20,849 nt of DNA from Gemmatimonadota bacterium (GTDB lineage Bacteria; Latescibacterota; UBA2968; UBA8231): the NCBI GenBank assembly GCA_002712305.1, contig PATE01000034.1:1-20849 (forward strand), written 5' to 3'. The translations under genes and the position numbers were made by a program. Positions 164 to 20,601 of the stretch are shown here, piece after piece. Within the stretch, counting starts at the first letter, position 1; every line of letters begins with the position of its first letter. Below the pieces are notes generated by a model that did no database searches, was not told where the DNA came from, and saw only the letters and a program-made list of their open reading frames with translations.

Positions 164-182
164 GCGAGGTAGACGACCATAC

Positions 183-1121
183 ATGCGATCGCTGTGGAAG
201 GGCCACATTCGGTTTTCGATGGTGACGATCCCAGTGCGGCTCTATAATGCCGTCGACTCGGGATCGAGTATCCGCTTCAATCAACTGCACAAAGAAGACC
301 ACGGCCGCATCAAGTACGACAAGGTGTGCCGCAGTTGTTCCGAGACGCTGTCCGGCGACGATATCATCAAGGGGTACGAATACGCGCCCGATGAATACGT
401 CGTGGTGAATGACGAAGATTTCGAGAAGGTGAAGCTGAAGAGCACGAAGATCATCGAGATCGAGGGCTTCGTGGATGTGGACGATGTGGATGTGAGCATG
501 TACGACACGCCGTACTACGCCGGTCCGGATGGTGATGTGGCGGTGAAGGTCTTTGCCCTGCTGTCGCAGTCGCTGATCCAGAGTGGAAAACTGGGTGTGG
601 GCAAGGTCGTGCTGCGTGACCGCGAGGATATGGTCCTGATCGGTGCACAGGGCAACGGCATCGTGATCTACAAGGTTCGATATCCGCAATTCTTGCGGAA
701 GATGGACGACGTGCCGGGCCTGGCCGATACCGATGTCAGTGAAGACGAGTTGAAGCTTGCCCAGTCGCTGATCGACTCCATGTTGAAGGATCTGGGTGAC
801 ATCGAGATCAAGGACACGTACCACGAGGCCGTGCAGGAGATGATCCAGGCCAAGGTGGATGGCAAGGAAGTGGTCATGGCTGCCGAGGACGAGGTGAAGC
901 CCGTTGTCGATATCATGACCGCCTTGAAAGAGAGCATCGCAGCTGCCTCGGGTGAGGCGAAGCCGATGGAGCGTGCTACGGGCGAGAGTGCCGAGGATGC
1001 GGATGTAGAGGAGGGGGCTGAAGAAGAAGCGCCCAAGGCGAAGAAGAAGGCGGCGAAGAAGAAACCCGCCGCGAAGAAAAAGGCCAAAGCCAAAGCGAAG
1101 GCGAAGTCGAAAGCGGCCTAG
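183..1121 (+). CDS. ku: Non-homologous end-joining protein Ku
   Basis: A 312-residue protein. Bacterial Ku is a homodimeric ring that binds double-strand break ends and recruits the ligase. The start RSLWKGHIRFSMVTIPV is the family hallmark (xSxWKGxIxFGLVxIPV). Further matches are LYNAV, F-x-x-L-H, the C-R-x-C pair in KVCRSCSETL and the GYEYAPDEYVVV segment. The ATG at 183 is chosen because the family signature begins there; upstream in-frame codons overlap the ligase gene and have no counterpart in Ku. A GAGG-like ribosome site lies about a dozen bases upstream. The core covers roughly residues 1-255. An acidic stretch (EDADVEEGAEEE) follows, then a tail of about 30 residues made almost only of K, A and P, comparable with the lysine-rich DNA-binding tails of mycobacterial and other bacterial Ku proteins. 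It is adjacent to the ligase end upstream and probably co-transcribed with the TPR gene. Confidence 0.96.
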   Translation: MRSLWKGHIRFSMVTIPVRLYNAVDSGSSIRFNQLHKEDHGRIKYDKVCRSCSETLSGDDIIKGYEYAPDEYVVVNDEDFEKVKLKSTKIIEIEGFVDVDDVDVSMYDTPYYAGPDGDVAVKVFALLSQSLIQSGKLGVGKVVLRDREDMVLIGAQGNGIVIYKVRYPQFLRKMDDVPGLADTDVSEDELKLAQSLIDSMLKDLGDIEIKDTYHEAVQEMIQAKVDGKEVVMAAEDEVKPVVDIMTALKESIAAASGEAKPMERATGESAEDADVEEGAEEEAPKAKKKAAKKKPAAKKKAKAKAKAKSKAA

Positions 1122-2062: not shown

Positions 2063-2252
2063 GCAGCTCCAACTCGTATTCACCTAAGATGTTGTTGAAG
2101 ATCTCCTCGCTCATGAAACCGGTCACGCGCAGGGCCAGGTGTTCACGGTGGCGACCAGCGGCGATGTATCCCCGCTGATTGGCATCGGAGGAAGGGCGCC
2201 AGAACTTGTCGTCGTGGGGAGACGTTTTGTCCGCTATTTGGCTTTCTTCCAA
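2043..2252 (-). CDS. Small hypothetical protein overlapping the propeller gene
   Basis: A 69-residue ORF that would start at a TTG inside the last codons of the upstream gene (19-base overlap, different frame) and end at 2043. The C-terminal half (GRHREHLALRVTGF, then EEIFNNILGEYELELRR) has a natural-looking composition and would form an amphipathic helix. No Shine-Dalgarno sequence is visible at a useful distance from the TTG; translation would rely on coupling to the upstream stop. I recognise no family, signal peptide or membrane segment. It fills an otherwise empty stretch between two convergent genes, which gives it slightly more credit than a random ORF. It could equally be chance. Confidence 0.35.
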   Translation of the reverse strand: MEESQIADKTSPHDDKFWRPSSDANQRGYIAAGRHREHLALRVTGFMSEEIFNNILGEYELELRRQSQS

Positions 2253-4234: not shown

Positions 4235-4249
4235 CTATTGTCCGTCAAT

Positions 4250-4273
4250 GGGTCGGTTTTAGGGTCGGTTTTA
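4250..4273. repeat. Perfect tandem repeat, 2 x 12 bp
   Basis: GGGTCGGTTTTA occurs twice head-to-tail at 4250-4261 and 4262-4273, between the ATG of the propeller gene and the shared -10 region. On the minus strand it lies in the predicted 5' leader of the propeller mRNA (TAAAACCGACCC twice). Tandem sites one helical turn apart could be an operator, or this may be a recent small duplication. Confidence 0.75.
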
Positions 4274-4293
4274 GCCGGGTGAGAGAATGGGGC

Positions 4294-4300
4294 TATTATA
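4294..4300. promoter_or_regulatory. Symmetric -10 element, likely bidirectional promoter
   Basis: TATTATA on the plus strand reads TATAATA on the minus strand, so the minus strand has a perfect TATAAT at 4300-4295 and the plus strand a good TATTAT at 4294-4299. It is an AT-rich island in a GC-rich divergent intergenic region and faces the propeller gene (minus) and the YbjN/cytochrome pair (plus). No strong -35 is visible for either direction at 16-18 bases. The minus-strand TATAAT is the better candidate. Confidence 0.5.
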
Positions 4301-4381
4301 CCTGCAACTTTTGCCCCGATCCATTCGATGCCTCAAAACGGTGGCGTCGGATCACCTCACACTCCTGCCCGGGGGAATTCC

Positions 4382-4816
4382 ATGTTCCGTTCCGCCTTGG
4401 CATTGATCCTGATGGCTGCCACAGTGGCCTCCGCTGAAGTGCCAGATGACTGGAAGAAGATCAGCGGTCTTCTGAAGGACTTCGACTACGAGGTCGAAAA
4501 GAAGGATGACTGGGTTCAGGCGACGCACGATGAATACCCGAACATGTTTATCAAGGGATACAAGAAGGGCGTCTTGCTACAGGCCTACTTTGAGACGAGC
4601 GATATGGATGTCAGCGAGCAAACGATTCGCAAGCTGAACAACAAGCTGAGTCTCAACGCCACAGTGGCCCGCTTCTACATCGACAGTGATGGCGATTTGA
4701 TGTGTGAAACATGGTACCCCGGTAAGTGGGACGAAGATCGTTTCGAGATCTTCCTCGAAGCCTGGCACGATGATACGAAGGGGCAATACTCGATGATCTC
4801 CGTCCTTACCGACTAA
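4382..4816 (+). CDS. YbjN-like exported protein
   Basis: A 144-residue protein. The ATG at 4382 is chosen because it opens a clean signal peptide (MFRSALALILMAATVASA, cleavage expected after VASA) and has GGGGGAA about five bases upstream; an earlier in-frame ATG would bury the signal. The mature part fits the YbjN fold seen in proteins labelled putative sensory transduction regulators: LLKDFDYEVEKKDD, a short core, QTIRKLNNKLSLNATVARFYIDSDGDLMCE split over two strands, and a closing RFEIFLEAWHDD helix. The family resembles type III secretion chaperones in fold and its biochemical role is not settled. Here the protein is exported, unlike E. coli YbjN. The diheme cytochrome gene follows 12 bases later, so the two are likely co-transcribed. 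Confidence 0.75.
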   Translation: MFRSALALILMAATVASAEVPDDWKKISGLLKDFDYEVEKKDDWVQATHDEYPNMFIKGYKKGVLLQAYFETSDMDVSEQTIRKLNNKLSLNATVARFYIDSDGDLMCETWYPGKWDEDRFEIFLEAWHDDTKGQYSMISVLTD

Positions 4817-4828
4817 GCCAGCACCCGC

Positions 4829-5791
4829 ATGCGCATCGCAAAGATTCTCGGACTACTCGTTGCCCTTGTCGGCCTTCTGGCCGTCGGGGGTTTCGTGTTT
4901 ATCCTGACGAGCTTCCCAGATGTCGCCCCCGCGCCGGACCTTGCCGTGGCGGGGACACCCGAACAGATCGAACGGGGTCGCTACCTGGCAGAGAATGTCA
5001 CCGTCTGTCAGGCATGTCACACGCCGAGGGACTATACCCTCTTTGCAGGACCGATACGGCGCGATCTGCTCGGTGCCGGCGGCGAGCGGTGGGATCAGAC
5101 GATGGGACTGCCCGGCGTGCTTTATGCAGACAACATCACACCGGCGGCGCTCTCCGAGTGGACGGACGGCGAGATCCTGCGGGCTTTCACCAGCGGGGTT
5201 TCTCGCGATGGAACGGCGATCTTTCCCCTCATGCCGTATCACGCCTACGGACGCATGAGCCAGGAGGATGCCGAAGCGATCGTTGCCTATCTCCGACAGA
5301 TCGCACCGATCGATCACGAGGTCCCCGAGCGGTCAATGGATCCGCCCCTGAACATCGTCGTACGGCTCATGCCGCAGCAGGCCGAGCCACAGGCCATCCC
5401 TTCCACGTCGGATGAACTGGCGTACGGCGAGTATATGACGACGATCGCTGCCTGTTCGGCTTGTCACGCCCCACTGGCCGACGGGCAACCCATTCTCGAC
5501 ATGGCCTACGCCGGCGGGCATGGGTATCCACTGCCCGGTGGCGGGGAAGTCCGGGCCGCCAACATCACGCCCCACGAAGGGACGGGCATCGGCTCGTGGA
5601 CTCGAGACCAGTTCATCGCCCGCTTCAAGGTGATGGTCGGTGCTCGTGATCAGGTACCACCGGGAGCCTACAACACGGTGATGCCCTGGGCCTCGTATGG
5701 CGAGATGACGGAGCAGGATCTGGGCGCGATCTTCACCTATCTGCAGTCGCTGCCCGCGATCGAGAACAAGGTCATTCGTTTCACACCGTAG
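4829..5791 (+). CDS. Membrane-anchored diheme cytochrome c
   Basis: A 320-residue protein. Residues 5-27 form a hydrophobic uncleaved anchor or signal segment, leaving the rest in the periplasm. Two cytochrome c domains follow, with heme-binding motifs CQACH (60-64) and CSACH (209-213). Each is followed by a Met-containing loop that can supply the axial ligand (FPLMPYHAYGRM around 135; VMPWASYGEM in the second domain). The layout matches the diheme cytochrome c subunits that carry electrons from periplasmic alcohol, aldehyde or sugar dehydrogenases to the respiratory chain; those usually have three hemes when part of PQQ-alcohol dehydrogenase, so this is a shorter relative. No dehydrogenase subunit is adjacent, so its donor is unknown. 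It is co-directional with the YbjN-like gene and ends before an intrinsic terminator. Confidence 0.93.
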   Translation: MRIAKILGLLVALVGLLAVGGFVFILTSFPDVAPAPDLAVAGTPEQIERGRYLAENVTVCQACHTPRDYTLFAGPIRRDLLGAGGERWDQTMGLPGVLYADNITPAALSEWTDGEILRAFTSGVSRDGTAIFPLMPYHAYGRMSQEDAEAIVAYLRQIAPIDHEVPERSMDPPLNIVVRLMPQQAEPQAIPSTSDELAYGEYMTTIAACSACHAPLADGQPILDMAYAGGHGYPLPGGGEVRAANITPHEGTGIGSWTRDQFIARFKVMVGARDQVPPGAYNTVMPWASYGEMTEQDLGAIFTYLQSLPAIENKVIRFTP

Positions 5792-5823
5792 GGGCTATCG
5801 ACACGACACGTGAACTTGGAGTC

Positions 5824-5856
5824 AGGCCGGTACGCTCGATGGGCGACCGGCCTTTT
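5824..5856 (+). terminator. Rho-independent terminator of the cytochrome gene
   Basis: AGGCCGGT at 5824-5831 pairs perfectly with ACCGGCCT at 5846-5853. The inner CGC/GCG at 5833-5835 and 5843-5845 can extend the stem past a bulge, and the stem is followed by TTTT (5853-5856). It lies 33 bases after the cytochrome stop. The minus strand has no T-run after the stem, so it should act mainly on the plus transcript. Confidence 0.85.
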
Positions 5857-5865
5857 CCGTTCTGG

Positions 5866-7329
5866 TCACGAATCGTTGGCTCGACGCCAGATGGCGCCCA
5901 CCGCGTCGAGTTTGGCATCGCTGAGATATCCGTAGCGGTTGATCCACACGCCGTCGGCCTCACTGTCAGCGACCAGTTCGAAGCGGCTTGCCACATCATC
6001 TGGAGGACCGTAGCCGTGGACGAGGGGGGTCACGGAAGGTCCTTCGGACCTTTTGGACATTCCTGCCGAATGCCTATCCCCTCCCGTGGTCGCTGATCTG
6101 GCTAGCTGTCTGGCCTGGCGGATTCGTCGTTTCTGTGCTGATGCACTGACGGGGTGGGGTTCGTGGGGTTCGGGGTAGCGGTAGTCGTCGAGCTTCGATC
6201 CCTGGGGTTCGTCGGCCAGATCGAAGAGATTGGACAGGGCGTGGACGAGCAGGGCCTCGTCGAGATCAGGGTTGTGTTCCAGCAGTCGTCGTCCCCAGAA
6301 CTCGACCATCACCGTCCAATGCATCGTGTACAGCTTCGGAGACACGGCGTCACAGATGCGGGCGGCACGACCGAGATCGAATCCGGTGAACATCGTCAGC
6401 GGCGGCATGAAGGCATTGGCGGAGAGTTTCTTCGGCGTGCCCGAGGTGGTGGCGTCGTCGATGATCTGACGCCAGTGCTGGAGCATGTCGACGGACAGAT
6501 CCGACTTGAGGCGAAGCCATTCGAAGACGGCCGGATACTGTCTCAGCAATGCCAGCTGGGTCATGCGCCCCCGGTCGGCATCGGCAAAGTCAGCCAGGTC
6601 GTCGTTGGTGAGTGAGCCGTGCAGGTAGTGGTAGAAGGCACTCACCTCGGCGTCGATTTCGTCGAAGGCATATCCACGGGTCCTGGCCCAATCGCTCACC
6701 TGAGGGCTGAAATCCTGAAAGGCCTCGTCGAGTTTGTAACAGGGATACTCCGGCCAATCCGGGCGGAACCCCGTCACGTGCGGATACTCGCGCAACAGAT
6801 TCGTCACCTGACCTCGCAGATAGTTGCGGATCGGCTCACTCGCCAGGCAGCCCGTGTCCGCCATGCGCTCCGGCATACCGCCACCGGGCAGGCGCGGGCG
6901 GTCTTCGTCGGTCATTCCCTGCGCCGACTGACCACTCACCTGGAAATAGACCTCCAGGCCTCTATCCAGGGCCGCGTCGATGAAGTCGCCGACGATGTGG
7001 CCGTGTTTCTCTGTCAGGTCATTGGCCTGTCGCGGTTGGTAGGGTGTGTCGGTGAACAGACTCGTGTCTGGGTGGTAGCTGGGGCCCGATCGCACCCAGA
7101 GAGACGTCTTCCCCCATAAAGGACGATCGAAGATGCGTGGGCTCGCCCCCGCATCGGAGGGTGGCTGGAAGCTGCCGCTGCCGGTTTCGGTTTCTGCGGT
7201 CACCGTCGGGTTCAGTGCTACGGCGGTGACACCGGCGCGTTGGGTCAGTGTGTCGAGGACCCCGTCGACTCCCTCATTGAGGATGAAATCAGCCAGGACG
7301 GTGATGCCGAAGGTGCGGGAAGTTGCCAT
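5866..7329 (-). CDS. Conserved hypothetical protein, TIM-barrel glycosidase-like
   Basis: A 487-residue protein; I take the ATG at 7329 (MATSRTFGITVLADFI), because the upstream in-frame extension would run through the neighbouring FKBP gene's start. No signal peptide. Its pattern of beta strands with conserved acidic and aromatic residues suggests a (beta/alpha)8 barrel: a strand GVTAVALNPTV near 33-43, GHIVGDFIDAALDRGLEVYFQVSG (barrel helix plus strand, about 110-133), VTGFRPDWPEYPCYKL with a strand-end Asp (about 185-200), and AVSPKLYTMHWTVM later. Glycoside-hydrolase-like proteins of uncultured phyla often look like this, but I cannot assign a family or substrate. It sits alone, divergent from the FKBP gene and convergent with the cytochrome gene. 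Protein-coding status is firm; function is open. Confidence 0.8.
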   Translation of the reverse strand: MATSRTFGITVLADFILNEGVDGVLDTLTQRAGVTAVALNPTVTAETETGSGSFQPPSDAGASPRIFDRPLWGKTSLWVRSGPSYHPDTSLFTDTPYQPRQANDLTEKHGHIVGDFIDAALDRGLEVYFQVSGQSAQGMTDEDRPRLPGGGMPERMADTGCLASEPIRNYLRGQVTNLLREYPHVTGFRPDWPEYPCYKLDEAFQDFSPQVSDWARTRGYAFDEIDAEVSAFYHYLHGSLTNDDLADFADADRGRMTQLALLRQYPAVFEWLRLKSDLSVDMLQHWRQIIDDATTSGTPKKLSANAFMPPLTMFTGFDLGRAARICDAVSPKLYTMHWTVMVEFWGRRLLEHNPDLDEALLVHALSNLFDLADEPQGSKLDDYRYPEPHEPHPVSASAQKRRIRQARQLARSATTGGDRHSAGMSKRSEGPSVTPLVHGYGPPDDVASRFELVADSEADGVWINRYGYLSDAKLDAVGAIWRRANDS

Positions 7330-7402
7330 AGGAAGTTGCGATCGCATCGGGGGATTCGGAGTATTTGCGTCAGTTCTCTCCCAACAACGAAAGGTTCTTC
7401 CC

Positions 7403-7861
7403 ATGCCTGGCGCCAAGCCTGGTGATACGGTCAAGGTTCACTACACGGGGCGCTTCGAAGATGGCTCGGTGTTTGATACATCCCAAGGCAAGGATCCCCT
7501 CGAATTCACCATGGGGCAGAGGCAGGTGATTCGCGGGTTCGAGGAAACCGTGGCAGAACTTGGCCCGGGGGAGTCGACATCGACGACGATCGAGGCGCCC
7601 GAGGCCTACGGTGAACGGATGGAAGAGCTGCTGTTTGAGGTGGACAAAGCTCGTTTTCCAGAGGAGATCGAGCCGGCCGTGGGTGATCAGTTAGAACTGA
7701 ATCAGCCTGAGGGCGGAACGGTGGAGGTCGTGGTCAGCCAGATTGAGGGAGATACGGTGACCCTCGATGCGAATCATCCTCTCGCCGGTCGGCGACTGAC
7801 CTTCGACATCCACCTCGTCGACATTTCTGCGGACGACTCCGACGGCGAGGCCACGCCGTAA
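7403..7861 (+). CDS. SlyD-type FKBP peptidyl-prolyl cis-trans isomerase
   Basis: A 152-residue protein. The ATG at 7403 starts directly before the family core, with AAGG eight bases upstream; the longer in-frame ORF has no FKBP sequence in its first 90 codons. Motifs: VKVHYTGRFEDGSVFDTS (11-27), PLEFTMGQRQVIRGFEETV (32-50) and a return strand RLTFDIHLVDI (131-141). Between them lies an insert (about 65-125, EAYGERMEELLFEVDKARFP) that corresponds to the IF chaperone domain of SlyD. SlyD-like proteins isomerise prolyl bonds and assist folding in the cytoplasm. The His/Cys-rich nickel-binding tail of E. coli SlyD is absent; the chain ends ISADDSDGEATP. The gene is monocistronic, divergent from the TIM-barrel gene (73-base gap) and convergent with the EamA transporter. 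Confidence 0.93.
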   Translation: MPGAKPGDTVKVHYTGRFEDGSVFDTSQGKDPLEFTMGQRQVIRGFEETVAELGPGESTSTTIEAPEAYGERMEELLFEVDKARFPEEIEPAVGDQLELNQPEGGTVEVVVSQIEGDTVTLDANHPLAGRRLTFDIHLVDISADDSDGEATP

Positions 7862-7862
7862 G

Positions 7863-7881
7863 GATGGGAGGCTCACCCATC
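7863..7881. terminator. Inverted repeat at the FKBP / EamA junction
   Basis: GATGGG (7863-7868) and CCCATC (7876-7881) form a perfect 6-bp stem with a 7-base loop. It spans the 11-base gap between convergent stop codons and enters the transporter's last codons. There is no T-run on either side, so termination is only a possibility. Confidence 0.3.
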
Positions 7882-8787
7882 AAGCTCTGCTGATCTTGCG
7901 CCCCATCGCTGCACACCCAGGCCACCGATGATCAGCACCAGGCCCAGCCAGGTAGAGGCCAACACCTGTTCACCCACGAGGCGACCGATGAGCAGCAGGG
8001 AGACGAAGGGGGACAGGAAGATGAGATTGCTCACCCGTGAGGCATTGCTGGCCAGGCGCAGCGCCGAGAGCCACAGGACGAAGGTGATTCCCATTTCGAA
8101 CATGCCCACATAGGCGCCGCCTGCCCAGCCCTGCCAGGTGGTTGGCCAGGGCGAATTCTCAACAACGACGAGGGTGATGATCCACGGCAGGCTGCACAGG
8201 AAATTCAAGAACAACCTCAACACGGGATTCACCTCGTCGCGAGTGTTGTAGATCCAGTACAGTGCCCAGACAATGGTGCTGCCGAGCGCCAGGGCCGTTC
8301 CTACTGGATCAGCGAACTCCATGGACCATGGACGACCCTTTGTGGCCACCACCAGGACACCCCCGTAACAGATGCCGCCGGCGACGATGTCGGTCCAGCG
8401 CAGCCGCTGACCCAGCAGGGGTACGGCCAGATAGGTCAACACGAGGGCCCACGTGTAGTTGAGCGCCTGTGCCTCCTGGGCAGGGAGCCGATCGTAGGCC
8501 TGAAGAAGGATCCAGTAGTAGAGGGCGGGATTGAGCAGCCCCAGCCACACCGAACGCCATCTCTGGCCTCGAGAAAGGTGCCTCACTTCGCCCAGCTGGC
8601 CTCGAAGGAGCAACAGGGTACCCAGGGTGAGACAGGATACGACACTGGCCACCATCAACAGCTGGGCTGGGGTCAGGTATTGGAGGGTGAGTTTGAAGGC
8701 CGAGGCCACCGTCGACCAGAGAGCGACCGCCCCCAGAGCGAGCACGTAGGGTCGCCGAGAGGACGTGAAAGAGGATTCCGGAGTCAT
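7873..8787 (-). CDS. EamA / DMT-superfamily transporter
   Basis: A 304-residue integral membrane protein with about ten hydrophobic segments arranged as two five-helix EamA repeats, the size and form usual for drug/metabolite transporter superfamily permeases. The first repeat starts YVLALGAVALWSTVASAFKL, a typical EamA opening with the conserved W-[GS] turn. The second repeat includes GTALALGSTIVWALYWIYN, and the chain ends GLVLIIGGLGVQRWG. Family members export or import amino acids, nucleosides, sugars or other small metabolites; the substrate cannot be read from sequence. The gene starts at an ATG with no strong ribosome site, is divergent from rpmG (113-base gap) and convergent with the FKBP gene. 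Confidence 0.9.
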   Translation of the reverse strand: MTPESSFTSSRRPYVLALGAVALWSTVASAFKLTLQYLTPAQLLMVASVVSCLTLGTLLLLRGQLGEVRHLSRGQRWRSVWLGLLNPALYYWILLQAYDRLPAQEAQALNYTWALVLTYLAVPLLGQRLRWTDIVAGGICYGGVLVVATKGRPWSMEFADPVGTALALGSTIVWALYWIYNTRDEVNPVLRLFLNFLCSLPWIITLVVVENSPWPTTWQGWAGGAYVGMFEMGITFVLWLSALRLASNASRVSNLIFLSPFVSLLLIGRLVGEQVLASTWLGLVLIIGGLGVQRWGARSAELDG

Positions 8788-8844
8788 CGAAGGATCGTCG
8801 TCAGGTGTGGCCGAGTGGGCATTGACGCCTTATCTTTTGCATTC

Positions 8845-8865
8845 TTCGGTCACAGTGAGACCGAA
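8845..8865. repeat. Inverted repeat in the rpmG leader
   Basis: TTCGGTC (8845-8851) and GACCGAA (8859-8865) are perfect complements around a 7-base spacer, 35 bases before the rpmG ATG. It could be a leader hairpin or a dyad operator. A TTGACG at 8822-8827 resembles a -35 box, but I find no convincing -10 at the right spacing. Confidence 0.45.
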
Positions 8866-8900
8866 CCCAAGATCGACCGTAAACAACTGGAGATGTTGTC

Positions 8901-9062
8901 ATGGCCAAGACCGGCCCCCGTAACCAGATCACGCTCAAGAGCACCGAGAGCAACCACTGCTACTATTCGAGCAAGAATCGCCGAAATCAGCAGGGACGTC
9001 TCGAGGTAAAAAAATACGACCCGACTTTGCGCAAACACGTGATGTATCGGGAAGAGCGTTAG
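8901..9062 (+). CDS. rpmG: 50S ribosomal protein L33
   Basis: A 53-residue protein beginning MAKTGPRNQITLKSTES and containing CYYSSKNRRNQQGRLEVKKYDP and a YREER end split over the last codons. This is the bacterial L33 pattern (I-x-L-x-S-T-x-[ST], Y-x-[ST]-x-K-N-[RK]-R-N, L-x-[LV]-x-K-Y-[DC]-P-x-x-[RK]-K-H). L33 binds near the E site of the large subunit. Only one cysteine is present and both CxxC pairs are missing, so this is the zinc-independent form. GGAG lies eight bases before the ATG. It stands alone: no rpmB, tRNA-Trp, secE or nusG neighbour is visible, unlike common L33 contexts. Confidence 0.95.
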   Translation: MAKTGPRNQITLKSTESNHCYYSSKNRRNQQGRLEVKKYDPTLRKHVMYREER

Positions 9063-9103
9063 GCGCGGTCAGTCAACAACGACACCATCATCTATGAGAG
9101 CCT

Positions 9104-9120
9104 CGTCGGCGATGCCGGCG
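9104..9120 (+). terminator. Hairpin after rpmG, possible terminator
   Basis: CGTCGGC (9104-9110) pairs with GCCGGCG (9114-9120) with one G-U wobble and a 3-base loop. It is followed by GGGCCTTTCTCGTTC, which is T-enriched but not a clean U-tract. It is the only stem-loop I find in the 113 bases between rpmG and the convergent SGNH gene; nothing else is evident in that gap. Confidence 0.35.
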
Positions 9121-9175
9121 GGGCCTTTCTCGTTCTACAGCGCCAGCGGGGCAGATCACATCGCCGTGAGGAAGA

Positions 9176-10375
9176 TCAACTGTCGAGTATCTGACGCAGA
9201 ACCGGTTCCAGGCCATCTGCCATCCGCAGAAATCCCAGGTCGGTCGGATGTGAACCGTCGACGGTACACTCGTAGTGATCTGCACCCATGAGCAAGCTGC
9301 CGTCGAGGAACTGGATCGCCGGATCTCCTGCGGTCTGGATGGCCTCAACGGCCTCACGTTGCGCCTGCATCCGTTCAAGCCGTGTCGCGTCGCCGTCTGG
9401 GCGGTCGAACTCCAGCGCTGAGGGGACACGAGATACGACCAGAATCGGCGTGGTGGCGTGACGCTCGCGAAGGATCTCGACAAAAACCGGGATCGTCTGC
9501 TGCAGGTGTTCGGCGCTGGGGCAGTTGGCATCGTAGTCGAGGACGAAAAGCCGGCAAGCGTCGATCGTCGACAGCGCTCGGGCGACCTCAGGCTCACCCC
9601 TGCCGCTGCCCGAGAATCCGAGATTCAGACAGACACGCTGCAGTCGACGCGCAAGGATCGCGGGATAGGCCATGCCCGGACGGGTCGCGCATCCTCCCTG
9701 CGTGATGGACGTGCCGTAGAACAGCAGTGGCGGTTCGTCGATCTGAGGCGTTGGTGGTTCGACGCTCGCATCACCGGCGATACCCACCTCGACACGATTG
9801 ACCCCCTGGTAGAGTGGGAAATGGAGGGTCAGATCACGCCAGCGTCGCTCGACGTTTAACAGGGTGACTTCGTAGTCGGCTTGAGCGCTGTCGAATTTCG
9901 TGACGCTGGCAAAACGCTCCGCGCCCGGTTCGCCGATGTAGACGTCGAATCCCGCTTCGCCTGTGGGGGCCATGTGCACCATCCGGGCAGGCCCACGCAG
10001 TTCGACCCGCAACATCAAACGTGGACTGTCGGTTCGCAGGCGAATCGTGCCCCCCGCTGTGCAGTTGGCCAGCGAGTCGACCGACTGCGGCAACACTTCG
10101 AGAGGTGTGGCCGGCATACGGCGATAGATGCGATCCTGATCGAACCAGGCGAATCCCGACATCTGTGCCGGTCCTTCGCTCGGATCGAGCCACCGTGTGT
10201 CAGCCTCGGCCTTGCCGGCGGTGGCCATGGCGGGATCGAAACGTGTGGCGTCGACAGCTTTGCTCTCTGTTGCCTTCGTCTGCGGGGTCACGAACTCAAT
10301 CCTGGTCGGTGTTGGTGTTTGGGCGCTCCGTGAAGGCTGCTTCCCCGCCGGGGGCAATGGTGCAGGCTCCACCAC
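9176..10375 (-). CDS. SGNH/GDSL hydrolase with N-terminal GxDLY domain
   Basis: 399 residues from a GTG at 10375; an ATG at 10228 (residue 50) is the more likely biological start, because the first 50 residues are proline/threonine-rich, match no domain and lack a signal peptide or good ribosome site. The N-terminal beta domain carries GFDVYIG (142-148), the GxDLY signature. The C-terminal domain is of the Lipase_GDSL_3 type: YGTSITQGG holds the nucleophile Ser (about 223), NLGFSGSG the oxyanion block, DYDANC an Asn (about 284), and DGSHPTD the Asp/His pair (about 373/376), so all four SGNH blocks are present. Relatives are esterases or acetylesterases acting on acylated carbohydrates; the substrate here is unknown. 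The reading frame stays open upstream to 10510, into the remnant described next. Confidence 0.85.
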   Translation of the reverse strand: MVEPAPLPPAGKQPSRSAQTPTPTRIEFVTPQTKATESKAVDATRFDPAMATAGKAEADTRWLDPSEGPAQMSGFAWFDQDRIYRRMPATPLEVLPQSVDSLANCTAGGTIRLRTDSPRLMLRVELRGPARMVHMAPTGEAGFDVYIGEPGAERFASVTKFDSAQADYEVTLLNVERRWRDLTLHFPLYQGVNRVEVGIAGDASVEPPTPQIDEPPLLFYGTSITQGGCATRPGMAYPAILARRLQRVCLNLGFSGSGRGEPEVARALSTIDACRLFVLDYDANCPSAEHLQQTIPVFVEILRERHATTPILVVSRVPSALEFDRPDGDATRLERMQAQREAVEAIQTAGDPAIQFLDGSLLMGADHYECTVDGSHPTDLGFLRMADGLEPVLRQILDS

Positions 10376-13542: not shown

Positions 13543-14709
13543 ATGAAACGACGAGAATTCCTGCGTGCCCTGAGCGCCGGATTGGCGGCGGCCCCCGTGG
13601 CGGCCGTGATGCACCCACCCGTACATGAAGGGTGGGGGCCGGCAGATGTGGGCATGGGAGGAGAGGGAGAGAAACGGGTGACGAAGAATTGGATCTGGCT
13701 GGGTCCCGACCCAGATGTTTCGGATGACGAATATAGTCGCCGTTTCGAACGGTTGAAGCGGGCGGGGATCGATGCGATCCTTCCCGAGATCTTCAACAAT
13801 CGGCAGGCCTTCTGGGGCAGTGAGCATCTGCCCGTGGTGGCTCCAGTGCTGGAGCGCCTGATTCCTCTTGCCCACGCAACGGACATTGAGGTGCACGCTT
13901 GGAGTCACATCATGACGTGCAATGTGCCCGACGTCATGGAGACACACCCGGAGTGGTATGATGTGAATCGGAAAGGGGAGTCGGCACGCGACAAACCGGC
14001 CTACGTCGACTACTACCGATTCATGTGTCCTTCACGACCCGGCGTACAGCAGTTCCTTCAGCAGCGCATGCGTGAACTGGCCGCCATCGATGGGCTCGAC
14101 GGCATCCATCTCGACTACATCCGCTTTCCCGATGTGATTCTCGCCGAGGCGCTGCAGCCCAAGTACGACCTGGTGCAGGACAGTGAGTTTCCCGAATACG
14201 ACTACTGCTATTGTGACGTCTGCCGAGCCGGCTTCAAGGCTGCCCATGGTCTCGATCCGCTCGTCGATCTGAAAGATCCGCCTGCCAACGAAGCGTGGTT
14301 CCAGTATCGGTGCGATCTGATCAGCCGACTCGTCAACGAAGATCTGATTCCGATCGGCCGCGCTGCAGGCAAGCAGATGACGGCTGCAGTCTTCCCGAAC
14401 TGGCGTCACGTTCGGCAAGAGTGGCACAAGTGGGAACTCGACGCTGTGCTGCCCATGCTCTACAACGGCTTCTACAACGAAGAGCTCGCCTGGGTCGGTG
14501 AGCAGTGCTCCCAGGGTATCGCCCGAATGAAAGACGTGGGGGTGAGCAAGGATCTCTACAGTGGTCTGTTTCTAGGGGACGTGCCTGCGCAGAAACTCAA
14601 CGAGGCGATCGACACATCGCTGAAAGGCGGCGCCCGAGGCGTCAGTCTCTTCGCCTTTGGTGGCCTGACCGACGGCCACGTTGAGGTCATGCAGCAACGA
14701 TTCGGCTAA
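13543..14709 (+). CDS. Tat-exported GHL10-type glycoside hydrolase-like protein
   Basis: A 388-residue protein. The N terminus MKRREFLRALSAGLAAAPVA is a Tat signal (RR then hydrophobic stretch). The rest is a TIM barrel of the glycosyl-hydrolase-like 10 (GHL10/DUF187) type: WIWLGPDP, YSRRFERLKRAGIDAILPEI, EVHAWSHIM (118-124), HPEWYDVNRKGES, YRFMCPSRPGVQQFLQQRM, and GIHLDYIRFPD (187-197) with the conserved barrel Asp191. A C-D-V-C pair (YCDVCRAGF) could bind metal. The E. coli homologue YngK and relatives bind or act on cell-wall or capsular sugars, but activity is poorly defined. It starts 33 bases after the DUF4097 gene on the same strand, so it is probably the last gene of the sigma operon, ending before a hairpin. 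Confidence 0.88.
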   Translation: MKRREFLRALSAGLAAAPVAAVMHPPVHEGWGPADVGMGGEGEKRVTKNWIWLGPDPDVSDDEYSRRFERLKRAGIDAILPEIFNNRQAFWGSEHLPVVAPVLERLIPLAHATDIEVHAWSHIMTCNVPDVMETHPEWYDVNRKGESARDKPAYVDYYRFMCPSRPGVQQFLQQRMRELAAIDGLDGIHLDYIRFPDVILAEALQPKYDLVQDSEFPEYDYCYCDVCRAGFKAAHGLDPLVDLKDPPANEAWFQYRCDLISRLVNEDLIPIGRAAGKQMTAAVFPNWRHVRQEWHKWELDAVLPMLYNGFYNEELAWVGEQCSQGIARMKDVGVSKDLYSGLFLGDVPAQKLNEAIDTSLKGGARGVSLFAFGGLTDGHVEVMQQRFG

Positions 14710-14743: not shown

Positions 14744-16369
14744 CTAGTCCCAGGGACGAACGAAACATCCGGGGGTGGCACCCGTGTGGGTGCCCTCATC
14801 AACCACGGCCGTCCCGTTGACCCACACGCGTTCGATCCCAACCGACAGTTGGTGTGGGTCCTGGAAGGTCGCTCGATCTGAGACCGTGTCGGCGTCGAAC
14901 TGCACGATGTCGGCGAACATCCCTTCCCGCAGCAGCCCGCGTCGACGCAGTCCCAATCGGTCAGCGACGGCACTGGTCATCTTGCGAACGGCGTCTTCGA
15001 GTCCGATGACGCCCTGCTCTCGCACGAAGCGACCGAGCACCCGAGGATAGGTCCCGTAGCCCCGTGGGTGCACAGGGCCGAAGGGCTTCCCCCAGGCCGG
15101 ATCGTATCCCCCCGCATCGGTCGAGATCTTGATCCAGGACTGCTGCAGTTGCAGGCGCAGGTTGTCCTCCGTCATCGAGAAGTAGATCGTCGAGATCGAC
15201 TGGCGTTCCGACAGGATCAGATCACAGACCGTGTCGAACCAATGTTGACCGCGTTCAGCGGCGATCTCCGACAGCCGGCGCCCCACATACTTCTGATTCT
15301 CTTCCTTGCGGAAACCGATGGGCATCACCGCATTCTCGCCGTGTTGGGAGACCATCGCTTCCCAACGGCCATCGGGGTCGGTCACGGCAGCACGGATCTT
15401 CTCGCGCATATCCGGGTCGACGAGATTGTCATAGAGCTTGCCACCGGCTGCAGCCCACGGTGGCAACACAGAGGTGAGACCCGTGCCCGATGCCGCATAG
15501 GGGTACATGTCGGCCGTCACATCCAGCCCGTCGGCACGGGCTGTGTCGATTCGCTCGATCACACCGGGCATCTTGTCCCAGTTGTCCCGGCCCGCCGCCT
15601 TGAGGTGGTAGATCTCGACGGGTACGTCGGCGCGTAAGCCGATCTCAAAGGCCTCGTCGAGGGCATCGAAGATCTCTCCCGCTTCCGAGCGGAGATGGGT
15701 GATGTACGTGCCATCGTATTGTCCCACCACTTCGCACACGTCGACGATCTCATCCACATCGGCGTAGCAGTCCGGTGGATAGATCAGGGCGTAGGACACG
15801 CCGAAGGCACCATCCTCCATGGCCTCGGCCATGACTCTTCTCATGACCGTGCGCTCTGACGCGGTGGCGCCTCGCATGTCCATGTCCAGCCCGCAGCGGC
15901 GCAGTGTGCCACCCCCCAGATAGGAGCCCACATTCGGCGACACCCCGTGCACTTCGAAGGCCTCGAGCCAGTGAGCGAAGCGGGTCCACCGACGGGCTCT
16001 CTCCTCCCAGGCAGCGATAGGCGCGCCATACACCGACGTGCGCAAACCACCCGCATTGCGACCGACGACGGGTGCTGGCGTGAAGGCTTCGCCCATGATT
16101 TCCGTCGTGATCCCCTGGGTGATCTTGGAGACACAGCGGCCATCGATCATCAGCGGGTAGATGGAGTGGCTCTGGATATCGATGAACCCCGGACACAGGA
16201 CGGCACCGCCTGCATCCACCACCTGGATCGCCGCAGTGTGGGGAATCTTCCCTGGTGGTGTGATCGCCGCGATCGAGTCACCGGCGATGGCCACCTCGCC
16301 CGCAAACCAGGGGTTTCCACTGCCATCGATGACACGAGCGTTGTGGATGAGCGTGTCGAAGCGCGCCAT
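14744..16369 (-). CDS. D-aminoacylase-like amidohydrolase
   Basis: A 541-residue protein of the N-acyl-D-amino-acid deacylase group (amidohydrolase superfamily). It opens FDTLIHNARVIDGSGNPWF and has CPGFIDIQSHS (59-69), THLRSE (His225), EIYHLKAAG (His255), STDAG (Asp418) and VHPRGYGTYPRVLG (His434), closing with GMFADIVQFD and a VWVNGTAVVD strand typical of this group. Classical D-aminoacylase has H-x-H after PGFID and a Cys metal ligand; here the first His is Gln66 and the Cys block (NCG) reads MGEAFTPAP with Glu94. These changes are shared, as I recall, by a wide group of relatives in uncultured bacteria, so the true substrate may not be a D-amino acid. Cytoplasmic. It begins six bases after the cupin gene stop and is the last gene of the operon. 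Confidence 0.9.
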   Translation of the reverse strand: MARFDTLIHNARVIDGSGNPWFAGEVAIAGDSIAAITPPGKIPHTAAIQVVDAGGAVLCPGFIDIQSHSIYPLMIDGRCVSKITQGITTEIMGEAFTPAPVVGRNAGGLRTSVYGAPIAAWEERARRWTRFAHWLEAFEVHGVSPNVGSYLGGGTLRRCGLDMDMRGATASERTVMRRVMAEAMEDGAFGVSYALIYPPDCYADVDEIVDVCEVVGQYDGTYITHLRSEAGEIFDALDEAFEIGLRADVPVEIYHLKAAGRDNWDKMPGVIERIDTARADGLDVTADMYPYAASGTGLTSVLPPWAAAGGKLYDNLVDPDMREKIRAAVTDPDGRWEAMVSQHGENAVMPIGFRKEENQKYVGRRLSEIAAERGQHWFDTVCDLILSERQSISTIYFSMTEDNLRLQLQQSWIKISTDAGGYDPAWGKPFGPVHPRGYGTYPRVLGRFVREQGVIGLEDAVRKMTSAVADRLGLRRRGLLREGMFADIVQFDADTVSDRATFQDPHQLSVGIERVWVNGTAVVDEGTHTGATPGCFVRPWD

Positions 16370-16375
16370 GGTGCT

Positions 16376-17122
16376 TTAGCTCACGACGAGGTAGGAGAGC
16401 CAGTCATCACCACGATCGTTGAGGATCATGTGGGGTACACCCTGCGGCAGATAGACCGTGTCTCCCTCGCGCAGTGGGTGCGCATCGAATCCGGTGACCA
16501 CCGAGCCTTCTCCTTCCAACACATAGTAGATCTGTTCCTTGTCGTCGTGCTGGTGCATGTCCGACGCGCGACCCCGGGACACGGCCTGACGAGCCAGATA
16601 GTAGAACGACAGCAGGCAGGGTTGAGGGGTCACGGGCTCCTCTTCGTTGAAGCGTTCGAGGATCTGCCAGGTCGCAGCATAACCATGGGCACCGATCCCC
16701 GGTGTGGACTGCCGCCAGTTGGTCACATAGGGCTTCGACCCGCTGCCCTCGGTGCCACAGGTGATGATCAGATACTCCACCCATTCGGTGCGGTCAGCAG
16801 CGCGAAGCTGATGCTCGACCTCTGGCGGGAAGTAACAGACGGATCCCTCTCGCACCGGGTAGGTGTCGTCGCCGATGTCGACATCGGCCTCGCCGGAGAG
16901 TATGTAGTAGTACTGTTCGGCGTTGGTGTGCGCATGGCGGTCGCCGTCCTTGCCGCCCTGCAGGTCGTGACGGGCAAAGCCGCTCATGTGCTGCAAGCAC
17001 TGGTGCGGGGCTGTTTCACCGTCTTTGGGTGGCGAGAAGATGGCCCGTACGACGGCGTTGTCGTGGCCGATGTAGGGATCTGCGTCGCGCCAGTTTCGTA
17101 CAATCGCTCTCGATGTCGTCAC
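16376..17122 (-). CDS. Bicupin protein
   Basis: A 248-residue protein from a GTG, with AAAGGA eight bases upstream. Two cupin barrels are present. The first has HAHTNAEQYYYILSGEADV with metal-ligand-like H63, H65, E69 and a second-motif His104 (FPPEVEH). The second has MHQHDDKEQIYYVLEGEG with H190, H192, E196 and His231 (LPQGVPH). All ligands of a mononuclear metal site are retained in both halves. Bicupins include dioxygenases, isomerases and decarboxylases, but single-domain-like relatives near sugar operons are often isomerases or simple binding proteins, so no reaction is claimed. It is transcribed between the PhyH oxygenase gene (41-base gap) and the amidohydrolase gene. Confidence 0.88.
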   Translation of the reverse strand: MTTSRAIVRNWRDADPYIGHDNAVVRAIFSPPKDGETAPHQCLQHMSGFARHDLQGGKDGDRHAHTNAEQYYYILSGEADVDIGDDTYPVREGSVCYFPPEVEHQLRAADRTEWVEYLIITCGTEGSGSKPYVTNWRQSTPGIGAHGYAATWQILERFNEEEPVTPQPCLLSFYYLARQAVSRGRASDMHQHDDKEQIYYVLEGEGSVVTGFDAHPLREGDTVYLPQGVPHMILNDRGDDWLSYLVVS

Positions 17123-17163
17123 GGTTTTTCCTTTCGAGGGGACGTGCTGATCATGATTGATTG

Positions 17164-18117
17164 TTAGGTGTCGGTGCCAGCGTCGCTCGGTCCGTAGAGT
17201 AGCTCACGCTGTTGTCGGGCCCACCCAGCGAGTGGGATCTCATCATCCGTGGGGCGCCAGTAGAGGGAAACTGGGTGCACGGCGGGGTCATCTCCCGAGT
17301 AGTTGTCGAGCCCCGTGCCCAGTTCGCCGAGCAACTGCCGCTGAATGGGTGAACATCCTTCGAGGGTCTGTGCCGTCTGCCGGTCATAGTCGGACGGTCG
17401 GATCCACCGGGGGTGATACCCGTAGTAGAGGCACCGGCGTGGCTCTGACGACAGATTGGGTCGCAATGCGTGTAACAATGCCGTGCGCCAGATCAGTGCA
17501 GCGCCTGGCTTCACCCTGACGGGCACAATGTCGTCGGCATCGATGAGATGGCGGCCGTCCGTATCGCGTGGCTGCGCACGTCGGTGACTGCCTCGCACGA
17601 CACAGATTTCACCCTGATCGCCCTTCGACAGATCCGTCAGATACAGACCGACCTTCATCTCCATGAAAGGCACGACGCCATCTACGAGGGGCCACCCATA
17701 GTTGGGGCCATCGGAATGCCAGGGAAAGAAAGAGTCGGGCGACCCTAGCTCGTGTTCAGCGGCGCTGGTCGGTTGCGGCGGTCGCACGTCTGCATGGGAC
17801 GTGCGCAGCTGGATGTTGCTTCCCATGACGTCGACGACGTAGGGGAGGATTCGCGGATGGTCGATCAGATCTCGGAACCGTCGGTCCAGAGACACGACAT
17901 TGCGCATCTGAAAGGCCTCATCCGCAGCCAGATCGCGATCGCGTACAAACCCTCGATACCGTTCATCCACCAGGTCGAGGAGGGTCGAGACCTCCTCGGA
18001 GGTTAGCAGATCCTCGACGATGAAGAAGCCCTCTTCATCGAACTGTCGTCGCTGTTCGGCGGTCAGGGCCAGGGGCCGCTCGACATCGACGTCGCTGGGT
18101 GGAGAGGGCGTGGTCAC
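17164..18117 (-). CDS. Phytanoyl-CoA dioxygenase (PhyH) family protein
   Basis: A 317-residue protein from GTG. It starts with the usual helix ALTAEQRRQFDEEGFFIVEDLL. The iron-binding facial triad is visible as His134-x-Asp136 in FFPWHSDGPNYG and His216 in TALLHALRPN, followed by Arg227 (SEPRRCLYYGY), the likely 2-oxoglutarate anchor. GDQGEICVVRGSH is the conserved strand before the distal His. PhyH proteins are Fe(II)/2-oxoglutarate oxygenases that hydroxylate or otherwise oxidise small molecules; the substrate is unknown. The start codon overlaps the upstream oxidoreductase stop as GTGA (18114-18117), so translation is coupled. This fits a step on the same substrate as the neighbouring enzymes. 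Confidence 0.93.
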   Translation of the reverse strand: MTTPSPPSDVDVERPLALTAEQRRQFDEEGFFIVEDLLTSEEVSTLLDLVDERYRGFVRDRDLAADEAFQMRNVVSLDRRFRDLIDHPRILPYVVDVMGSNIQLRTSHADVRPPQPTSAAEHELGSPDSFFPWHSDGPNYGWPLVDGVVPFMEMKVGLYLTDLSKGDQGEICVVRGSHRRAQPRDTDGRHLIDADDIVPVRVKPGAALIWRTALLHALRPNLSSEPRRCLYYGYHPRWIRPSDYDRQTAQTLEGCSPIQRQLLGELGTGLDNYSGDDPAVHPVSLYWRPTDDEIPLAGWARQQRELLYGPSDAGTDT

Positions 18118-19145
18118 GACGCGCTGGGGCCGATCGAACCGTCAGCGAGCATCGCCAACAGCGCCGAATCATCGGTTTCGAGGGGCAGTTGGATTCGGCA
18201 GCGACGACGGGATGATTCGTAGGTGGCGAAGATCAATTCCGTCGCCGCCAGGGCCTTGCGACTACTCAATTCCGGTTCGGTTCCACTATCGAGGCACGCA
18301 AGCAGATCACTGCAACTGGCAATCGTATGCTCTGCATCGGGCACGCCCTGTGTAAAGGCAGGCGACTCCCAACCTGAGCCGCGCCACAGTCGCAACGGAC
18401 TCTCAGGGTCTCGCAAGTGCAGTTCGACGATTCCTTCACTGCCGATCAGTCGAATATGCAGCCCGTCGTCTGATGCATCCCCGGTCGTGACAAGACCTTC
18501 GACGCCATTGGTGAACCGAAACCAGCTCAGCCCGCTGGTCTCCAACGGCACATCAAAGACCTTCCGGTCCTCGGCGACCTCGATCTGTCCCATGACCCAC
18601 TCGACGGAGGACTCTTCGTTGTAGAAGAAGCAGATGTCGAACCAGTGGGTTCCCCAGTCGAAGAGATTGGGACAGGTCGCTTCGATTCGACGCAAGTCGC
18701 CAATCGCTCCGTCACGAAGCAGATCCCGGGCCGTCAAGAATGTGTGGCCGAAGCGGCGCTGATGGCATAACGTGAGCACCACGCCGGCCTGCTGGCAGGC
18801 ATCGTGGATCGCACGGGCATCGCCCCATGTGGGGGCCATCGGCTTCTCCGAGTGAATCGCCTGAACACCCGACGGCGCCGCAGCCTCGATCATCTCACGA
18901 TGCATGCCCGTCCACGTACACACGCTGACGATATCCAGCGACTCCGCCTTCAACATCTCTCCGTAGTCGGTATAACGACGCAGGTCGCCGAAACGTTCGC
19001 AGAATTCATCCCTCGACGCCTCGACGGGATCTGCACAGGCCACCAGTTGGCTGCGTTCGTCGTGCTGCCAACCTTCGGCGTGAGCTCGCCCGCGACCTCC
19101 ACAGCCGATGACGGCCACATTGCGCGCTGTCGTGCTGCTATTCAT
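18114..19145 (-). CDS. Gfo/Idh/MocA-family oxidoreductase
   Basis: A 343-residue protein; the ATG at 19145 is chosen because GAGG lies seven bases upstream and the Rossmann fold follows at once, while the longer in-frame ORF adds 56 Arg-rich residues of no domain. The NAD(P)-binding site is NVAVIGCGGRGRAHAEGW (G14-x-G16-x2-G19). The conserved EKPMA (100-104) holds Lys101. WGTHWFDICFF (164-174) has His167 and Asp170, the usual active-site helix residues. Family members oxidise or reduce a sugar, inositol or related hydroxyl; the exact substrate cannot be read from sequence. The gene follows the sulfatase by 28 bases and overlaps the PhyH gene. Confidence 0.93.
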   Translation of the reverse strand: MNSSTTARNVAVIGCGGRGRAHAEGWQHDERSQLVACADPVEASRDEFCERFGDLRRYTDYGEMLKAESLDIVSVCTWTGMHREMIEAAAPSGVQAIHSEKPMAPTWGDARAIHDACQQAGVVLTLCHQRRFGHTFLTARDLLRDGAIGDLRRIEATCPNLFDWGTHWFDICFFYNEESSVEWVMGQIEVAEDRKVFDVPLETSGLSWFRFTNGVEGLVTTGDASDDGLHIRLIGSEGIVELHLRDPESPLRLWRGSGWESPAFTQGVPDAEHTIASCSDLLACLDSGTEPELSSRKALAATELIFATYESSRRRCRIQLPLETDDSALLAMLADGSIGPSAS

Positions 19146-19173
19146 CCATCTTCCTCTGATTCGCCAGCGCCGA

Positions 19174-20601
19174 CTACGCGACAACTGGTGGTGGTTCCCA
19201 CGTGGGATTCGGTGCGGGAATCTTCGCGGCGACGGATTCACGCCAGGCCGCCAACTGGTTGTGCAAGTCAGCCGCGATGGCGGGTTCGGCGTCGAGTCGA
19301 TCGTCGTCCTCACCGATGTCGAGTCGCAGGTTGTACAGTTCGCGTCGGCCGTCGTCGAAAAACTCGATCAACTTCCAGTCGCCGCTGCGGATCGACGAAC
19401 CCGGCGTGCCGCCCTGATTCCCGTAGTGGGGATAGTGCCAGAAGATCGAAGCGCGTTCCAACTCTCCTCGTCTGTGAAGCAGGGGACCGAGGCTCTCGCC
19501 ATCCACATGCTGGTCGGGCAGGGCAGGCAGTCCGGCCACCTCCAGCAACGTGGGGTAGATGTCGGGGCTCGTGATCGGCGTGTCACAGACGCTACCCGCC
19601 TCGATCCTGCCCGGCCAGCTGACGAACAACGGTTCACGAGTACCACCTTCGTACATCCAGCCTTTGCCTTCTGCCAGAGGCGCATTGCACGTGGGCGACC
19701 CCTCCGATGTGGCCAGACCGCCATTGTCCGAGGTGAACAGGATCATCGTGTCGTCAGCGTGGCCCGTGGCGTCGAGGGTGTCGAGGACGCGGCCGATGTT
19801 CTCGTCGAGACTGTCGATCATCGCCGCATACACCGGGTCAGACTGAAGCAGTCGTCGGCGCACATGCTGGTCCTTCTTGTGCTCGCAGGGGTGGAATTCA
19901 TCCTCTGAGAACGTCTCGAGCTGGTCGAGGCCGAGATCGCGTACCTTCTGTTCGTAGCGTGCGATCCGGTCGGCCTTGGCCTGAATCGGCGTATGCACAC
20001 TGTAATACCACAGGTTCAGGAAGAAGGGCTGCTCGTCGCCGGCGCCCGTGATCAGCTCGACCACGTGATCGGTGAGATAGTCGGTGAGATAGGTCCCGTC
20101 GGGCACGTCGGCATCCACGAGAGGATCGATCGACCAGGGACTGAAATACCCACCCCTTCCGGGAGATCCCATGTGGTAGCCGCCAATATTGACGTCAAAC
20201 CCGTGATCCTGCGGCAGATGGCCTTCGCCACCCAGGTGCCATTTGCCCACGTGCCAGGTCTGATATCCTCCCTCGCGCATCGCCGAGGCCAGCGAATGCT
20301 CCGATGACGGGAGCTCCTTCAGATACGGCACATCGATGACGGCGCCCCGAGCTGGGTGGACATGTCCGTTCCAATCGATCCAGTCCGTGATCCCCACCGT
20401 GGCCGGATACTTGCCGGTGAGCAGGCTCGCTCTGGTGGGCGAACAGACGGGACACGCAGCATAGGCGTCGGTGAAGCGCATCCCAGAGCGACACAACCGA
20501 TCGATGTTCGGCGTTTCGTAGAAGCTGCTTCCGTAGCAGCCGAGATCCTTCCATCCCATGTCGTCGATGAGGATGAGGATGATATTTGGGCGTTTGGCCA
20601 C
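19174..20601 (-). CDS. Sulfatase, formylglycine-type, without signal peptide
   Basis: A 475-residue protein from GTG with AGGAG seven bases upstream. NIILILIDDMGW holds the metal-binding Asp13/Asp14. The signature VCSPTRASLLTG carries Cys53, the residue converted to formylglycine, and Arg57. HVGKWHLGG supplies Lys120 and His122, HTP His203, and FTSDNGG Asp292/Asn293, so the type I sulfatase active site is complete. The chain is shorter than many sulfatases and has no signal peptide or membrane segment, which places it in the cytoplasm unless a longer start exists. It hydrolyses a sulfate ester of a carbohydrate or other alcohol. It is the first gene of the five-gene minus operon; the maturation enzyme is not in the window. 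Confidence 0.95.
   Translation of the reverse strand: MAKRPNIILILIDDMGWKDLGCYGSSFYETPNIDRLCRSGMRFTDAYAACPVCSPTRASLLTGKYPATVGITDWIDWNGHVHPARGAVIDVPYLKELPSSEHSLASAMREGGYQTWHVGKWHLGGEGHLPQDHGFDVNIGGYHMGSPGRGGYFSPWSIDPLVDADVPDGTYLTDYLTDHVVELITGAGDEQPFFLNLWYYSVHTPIQAKADRIARYEQKVRDLGLDQLETFSEDEFHPCEHKKDQHVRRRLLQSDPVYAAMIDSLDENIGRVLDTLDATGHADDTMILFTSDNGGLATSEGSPTCNAPLAEGKGWMYEGGTREPLFVSWPGRIEAGSVCDTPITSPDIYPTLLEVAGLPALPDQHVDGESLGPLLHRRGELERASIFWHYPHYGNQGGTPGSSIRSGDWKLIEFFDDGRRELYNLRLDIGEDDDRLDAEPAIAADLHNQLAAWRESVAAKIPAPNPTWEPPPVVA

Follow-up and report, generated by a model that had tools for sequence, protein, structure and literature searches.

The stretch of DNA analysed here, called the window throughout, comprises 20,849 nucleotides of a Gemmatimonadota bacterium and forms part of a 25,028-base contig (C55) in a 4.77 Mb assembly (G000). 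Its main feature is a set of five enzyme genes arranged head-to-tail on the minus strand between positions 14744 and 20601 (Table 1): a sulfatase, a Gfo/Idh dehydrogenase, a PhyH oxygenase, a bicupin and a D-aminoacylase-like amidohydrolase. From the sulfatase to the amidohydrolase the intergenic gaps are 28, -4, 41 and 6 bases, the PhyH gene overlapping the Gfo/Idh gene by 4 bases. An earlier sequence-only reading had proposed this layout and these five families, and both are borne out by the open reading frame (ORF) coordinates and by Pfam matches to PF00884, PF01408, PF05721, PF07883 and PF07969. It had also placed the enzymes in the cytosol for want of signal peptides. By inspection, all five proteins indeed lack a hydrophobic leader, with N-termini close to their catalytic domains. 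As it had noted, there is no transporter among the operon's genes; an EamA-family transporter gene lies outside it, about 6 kb away. The Gfo/Idh gene starts at the ATG at 19145; a longer ORF from a GTG at 19313 was rejected, as it overlaps the sulfatase and is unmatched in relatives. A scan for promoters and terminators gave no signal above chance.

Table 1. Predicted genes of the window, operon members first, with positions counted from its first nucleotide.
Feature	Position	Strand	Details
Formylglycine-type S1 sulfatase, S1_16-like; first operon gene	19174-20601	-	475 amino acids (aa); GTG start; PF00884 E=2e-55
Gfo/Idh/MocA NAD(P)-dependent dehydrogenase	18114-19145	-	343 aa; PF01408 E=7e-22, PF22725
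PhyH-family Fe(II)/2-oxoglutarate oxygenase; facultative member	17164-18117	-	317 aa; GTG start; PF05721 E=7e-16
Bicupin	16376-17122	-	248 aa; GTG start; PF07883 in two stretches, E=2e-27
D-aminoacylase-like amidohydrolase, QxH / GEA branch; last operon gene	14744-16369	-	541 aa; ATG start; PF07969 E=4e-15
GHL10-like glycosyl-hydrolase-type protein, twin-arginine-like N-terminus	13543-14709	+	PF02638 E=5e-12
SGNH/GDSL esterase, GxDLY N-terminal domain	9176-10375	-	Kept in g1, g2 and g5
EamA-family transporter, outside operon	7873-8787	-	PF00892 E=7e-31
666-aa protein	2234-4234	-	Weak similarity to rhamnogalacturonan lyase family 11 C-terminal domain; syntenic in g5
Ku-family DNA end-joining gene	33-1121	+	PF02735 E=4e-42

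We compared the locus across a class sample of 47 genomes that includes the window's own. The cluster is found in all six sampled genomes of two genera, g1 (G000 and G001) and g5 (G005, G009, G012 and G015), with protein identities of 60-89% and with order and tight spacing kept. The sulfatase, Gfo/Idh and amidohydrolase genes are present in all six, the G009 sulfatase being cut by a contig end and the G012 amidohydrolase split in two pieces. Recurrence of this order in six genomes means that the ORFs were not read as an operon by chance, and the kept order and spacing also led us to reject chance co-occurrence of the families alone. Conservation extends beyond close strains, as the sequence-only reading required. 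On gene order and spacing, we conclude that the five genes are one real operon of two genera, with a predicted obligate core of sulfatase, Gfo/Idh dehydrogenase and amidohydrolase.

Outside these two genera, orthologs of the operon genes are scattered, each distributed across the class independently of the rest. A Gfo/Idh ortholog is present in 39 of the 47 class genomes (E<=1e-60) and a sulfatase ortholog in 29 (E<=1e-120), the hydrolase branch occurs in 20 of 64 phylum genomes (E<=1e-140), and PhyH orthologs of about 60% identity are found in genera g4 and g7. In G024, a genome of a sister genus on a single contig, the Gfo, sulfatase and PhyH orthologs lie at 0.25, 1.74 and 4.57 Mb. Because the same genes are megabases apart there, their gathering in the operon suggests selection. 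In G002, the hydrolase is accompanied, as in the window, by the EamA and GDSL genes, and the sulfatase ortholog is on another contig. We infer that the cluster came together around the hydrolase in the common ancestor of g1 and g5, though not with certainty, as the hydrolase runs off the end of the G002 contig. A bicupin search of genome contigs returned one locus, JABJJN010000079.1 (G001; Gemmatimonadetes bacterium isolate SI074_bin69), and none was found on the plasmids searched.

The sulfatase carries intact catalytic motifs of the formylglycine type. Its nearest solved structures are 6UST, the 6-sulfated N-acetylgalactosamine (6S-GalNAc) sulfatase of H. hathewayi (602 bits), and 9FO1, a kappa-carrageenan sulfatase of S1_16 (453 bits). 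Both are assigned to S1_16, whose activities cover 6S-GalNAc, 4-sulfated galactose (4S-Gal) or GalNAc, and kappa-carrageenan G4S (PMC11760155). The formylglycine site C53-S-P-T-R57 (C53-x-P-x-R57), the calcium ligands D13 and D14, the DN pair of SDNGG and the sulfate-site Lys and His are kept across 14 orthologs. In the numbering of AMOR_S1_16A, W74 corresponds to Trp79 and H122 to His125, and the Glu, Asn and Gln of the sugar site are also present. The genome contains FGE-family genes. In family f3 of the class, the sulfatase orthologs carry Phe at hallmark Trp79, and the gene directly follows a different Gfo/Idh gene (L154 7924-10364, L157 and L161), and downstream of it lie ThuA-like, fatty-acid-hydroxylase-like and PhyH-domain genes.

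The two halves of the amidohydrolase both align with D-aminoacylase 1M7J (E=1e-71) and with PpOngB (E=5e-65), a specific N-acetylglucosaminate deacetylase (PMC12017989). The catalytic Asp368 of OngB is kept as D418 and His70 as H68, the metal ligands His222 and His252 as H225 and H255, and Glu226 is kept as well. The carboxylate-binding Lys254, Tyr285 and Arg379 correspond to K257, Y289 and R436, invariant in 12 sequences, and OngB Ser291 and Ser292 are replaced by Gly and Thr. The AlphaFold2 model of active-site segment 71-118 is mostly below a pLDDT of 50.

Of the oxidoreductases, the Gfo/Idh protein has a Rossmann match to PF01408 above cut-off, with the EKP lysine and a DxxxH motif; the motifs EKPMA and FDWGTHWFD are unchanged across ten class orthologs, and no NCBIfam equivalog cut-off is reached. 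The neighbours of one ortholog in family f3 (G045) are a sulfatase, a zinc dehydrogenase and an SGL gluconolactonase-like gene, and an ortholog in family f4 lies beside a three-subunit molybdenum-hydroxylase-like enzyme. These neighbours suggest, without proving, oxidation of a sugar or aldehyde. In the PhyH protein, the PWHxD motif, the distal His and the 2-oxoglutarate Arg are unchanged or almost unchanged across 8 orthologs. As a separate observation, the PhyH expansion in G000 is very large (152 family matches in 4.77 Mb, any match being found in only 1 of 14 control genomes) and is more striking than the operon.

Both cupins of the bicupin bear HxH...E...H metal motifs, and H63, H65, E69 and H104 are unchanged in 11 relatives. 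Its AlphaFold2 model (pLDDT 92) is nearest in fold to DUF861 bicupins and (S)-ureidoglycine aminohydrolase, with Z about 25 (24.8 for 4E2Q) and a root-mean-square deviation of about 2 Å. Oxalate decarboxylase follows at Z about 23, others lie within 2-3 Z units, and function is not readable from such matches to a predicted model. Assignment as (S)-ureidoglycine aminohydrolase was rejected, as the protein scores 39.4 bits against TIGR03214, where the cut-off is 200 bits.

We tentatively propose that the operon works in the cytosol on an imported sugar or sugar acid that is sulfated and N-acylated, and that it desulfates, oxidises and de-N-acylates this compound; we hold this reading to be possible rather than probable. 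The S1_16-like sulfatase, activated by FGE, would first strip a sulfate ester, and the Gfo/Idh enzyme would then oxidise the desulfated sugar, yielding a keto group or lactone, a direction suggested by the gluconolactonase and dehydrogenase neighbours of Gfo orthologs in another family. Judging by its conserved carboxylate-binding and catalytic residues, the amidohydrolase might next remove the N-acyl group from the carboxylate-bearing product in the manner of OngB, using a single metal held at the beta site. The bicupin could then isomerise, open or deaminate the product. The PhyH enzyme, which is optional, may hydroxylate a variant substrate in some species. If the enzymes form one route, the substrate must bear both a sulfate ester and an N-acyl group.

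Several lines of evidence are consistent with this route: the order and spacing kept in six genomes, the wide dispersal of the same orthologs in G024, the FGE-family genes, the family f3 neighbours of the Gfo ortholog, and the pairing of the family f3 sulfatase ortholog with a different Gfo/Idh gene. In addition, the activities known for the closest sulfatases are on 6S-GalNAc or 4S-Gal (PMC11760155), and the hydrolase retains the carboxylate-binding residues and catalytic Asp of OngB (PMC12017989). An enolase-superfamily gene resembling sugar-acid dehydratases is a further point in favour; it lies beyond a penicillin-acylase-family gene that is just outside the window and divergent from the sulfatase (L036 8670-12390), and both genes are upstream of the operon in g1 only.

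Other observations weigh against it. In the sulfatase, the S1_16 hallmark His149 is replaced by S146, Ser also being found in 13 of 13 aligned class orthologs. Because of this replacement we describe the enzyme as S1_16-like and not as a proven member, an assignment made by homology and motifs. Further, the Glu, Asn and Gln that it shares with AMOR_S1_16A reportedly make that enzyme's sugar site too cramped for an N-acetyl group (PMC11760155). In the hydrolase, the beta-metal ligand Cys97 of OngB is replaced by A95, beside a clade-conserved E94, so that the class clade reads G93-E94-A95 where D-aminoacylase has Gly-Asn-Cys-Gly. Likewise, His68 is replaced throughout the clade by Q66, giving Q66-x-H68 for HxH. 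OngB mutated at Cys97 or His68 loses nearly all activity (PMC12017989). With both residues replaced, this branch either works with another kind of metal site or has altered its function, and we rejected filing it as a D-aminoacylase or as OngB. Two genes are also dispensable. PhyH is missing from two of the six genomes (G001 and G015, the latter with a DUF4097-like gene between Gfo and cupin), and the bicupin is deleted in G009, where codons 1-25 are joined in frame to 241-248 between PhyH and hydrolase (L098 10015-10210). The cupin collapse is possibly a real deletion, or else an assembly artefact of draft metagenome-assembled genomes. The route as a whole is plausible but unproven.

The proposals of the sequence-only reading survive in part. 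Its suggested search for co-occurrence found the order kept in the six genomes, with PhyH and cupin not always present. A route for a sulfated, N-acylated compound is plausible as a general reading, but a pathway of five fixed steps would claim too much, the set not being obligate. The family chemistry it assigned agrees with intact catalytic motifs in the sulfatase, Gfo/Idh, PhyH and cupin proteins; amide hydrolysis is uncertain because of the two replaced metal-site residues. The tight operon supports the reading; co-occurrence of the families in itself says little in a genome with so many of them, and synteny extends past the operon.

These last points feed a possible but doubtful explanation in which the operon serves no pathway of its own: a sulfatase that scavenges sulfur would have come to share a transcript with oxidoreductases of broad specificity, kept together by the general synteny of g1 and g5. 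That synteny reaches about 12 kb beyond the operon and takes in the GDSL, EamA, 522-aa and 666-aa genes (window 2234-10375), and across the class the operon's orthologs are independent of each other. Alongside its PhyH matches, G000 contains 107 matches to Gfo/Idh and 47 to sulfatases, the latter amounting to about 45 genes once split matches are joined. Within 2.5 kb, 6 sulfatases have a Gfo neighbour (4.7 expected) and 7 a PhyH neighbour (6.3 expected); at 4 kb the counts are 8 (7.3 expected) and 13 (9.7 expected). With families this abundant and adjacency near chance, family adjacency alone carries no weight. After this test we no longer count a sulfatase-Gfo-PhyH theme recurring across the class as statistical support, and its neighbour examples are anecdotal. 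The remaining clustering evidence is the kept spacing and order together with the contrast to dispersed orthologs in sister genera. Both argue against a merely shared transcript, as does the sulfatase ortholog paired elsewhere with a different Gfo/Idh gene.

A serious rival, which we consider unlikely, is suggested by operons in Deinococcus. Here the compound would be of N-acyl-D-amino acid or D-peptide type, such as a sulfated glyco-amino acid or acylated amino acid. The hydrolase would then be a genuine deacylase of N-acyl-amino acids, and the remaining enzymes would trim the group attached to the amino acid or peptide. The hydrolase's nearest relatives outside the class, a further point against a sugar route, are on four Deinococcus plasmids (46-47% identity). 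Three of these loci are operons with genes for a menC/N-acylamino-acid-racemase-like protein, a GNAT acyltransferase, an ABC transporter, a serine hydrolase and a MurR/RpiR regulator, one of them also with a membrane dipeptidase; the Deinococcus deserti relative lacks such surroundings. Relatives in Croceicoccus and in the haloarchaeon Natrinema accompany DUF1611 and dipeptide epimerase genes, and the penicillin-acylase-family and enolase-superfamily genes upstream in g1 would also fit. However, the operon has no racemase, peptidase or peptide transporter, and its sulfatase and Gfo/Idh enzyme point to sugars. Among the haloarchaeal relatives (37-40% identity, canonical HxH in those aligned), two are near heparinase II/III genes, one of these also beside a Gfo/Idh gene and near a family 20 glycosidase. 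Very improbably, the genes form a biosynthetic tailoring cluster in which PhyH, Gfo/Idh and cupin modify the scaffold of a small natural product: PhyH enzymes are common tailoring oxygenases, and the bicupin fold resembles AerE (aeruginosin) and BacB (bacilysin synthesis) at Z about 21-23, but the operon and scanned flanks have no synthetase, ligase or glycosyltransferase family match, and the presence of a sulfatase and a deacylase speaks for breakdown.

In the sea, sulfated glycans and amino sugars make up a large store of carbon, and uncultured bacteria rich in sulfatases, such as these, presumably degrade them. To our knowledge, few of the intracellular steps that follow their import have been described. 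The operon offers a small, testable gene set and reveals a branch of amidohydrolases whose metal site is changed. A more specific claim is rather unlikely to hold in full: that an uncultured bacterial class has here a cytosolic route, not described before, that desulfates, oxidises and de-N-acylates a sulfated N-acylated sugar acid by means of a new mononuclear type of amidohydrolase, whose metal site is completed by Glu instead of Cys and has Gln for the first His. No description of the five-gene combination was found in the literature searched, whose partial coverage makes this weak evidence of novelty.

The surroundings of the operon are partly shared between genomes. The GHL10-like gene, convergent to the operon and outside it, is syntenic in five of the six (tblastn: G001, G005, G009 and G012). 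The EamA gene is kept in g1, g2 and g5, with 57-77% identity in L035, L039, L098 and L105. At the far end of the window, the Ku gene is overlapped by a 430-aa antisense ORF without a family match.

Among known systems, the bicupin shares its fold with (S)-ureidoglycine aminohydrolase and the DUF861 bicupins at only 12-18% identity, and differs in having metal motifs in both cupins. The oxidative chitin (GlcNAc1A) catabolism of Pseudoalteromonas prydzensis (PMC9537276, PMC12017989) offers, in OngB, a D-aminoacylase fold with the same catalytic Asp, two metal His and Lys/Tyr/Arg set, and the operon hydrolase would likewise deacetylate an oxidised amino sugar, differing at Cys97 and His68. As described, that route has no sulfatase, Gfo/Idh, PhyH or cupin, and its type of deaminase and sugar-acid kinase families were not found in the operon or scanned flanks, to which the search was confined. 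The aligned Deinococcus relatives share the motif IMGE-xWTPAP and have Met where the operon clade has Gln (the His68 position); their partner genes are those of racemase-like, GNAT, transport, serine hydrolase and regulatory proteins. The S1_16 sulfatases (HhSulf 6UST, AMOR_S1_16A and BT3796/BT3057; PMC11760155) are homologous to the operon enzyme over its full length. They share with it the CxPxR site, the calcium ligands and equivalents of Trp79, His125, His201, Lys287 and Glu270/Asn369/Gln370; AMOR_S1_16A bears a leader peptide and the operon sulfatase does not. Finally, the assembly as a whole is similar in its sulfatase richness to PAUC34f/Latescibacteria-type metagenome-assembled genomes (PMC5596340, PMC7081726).

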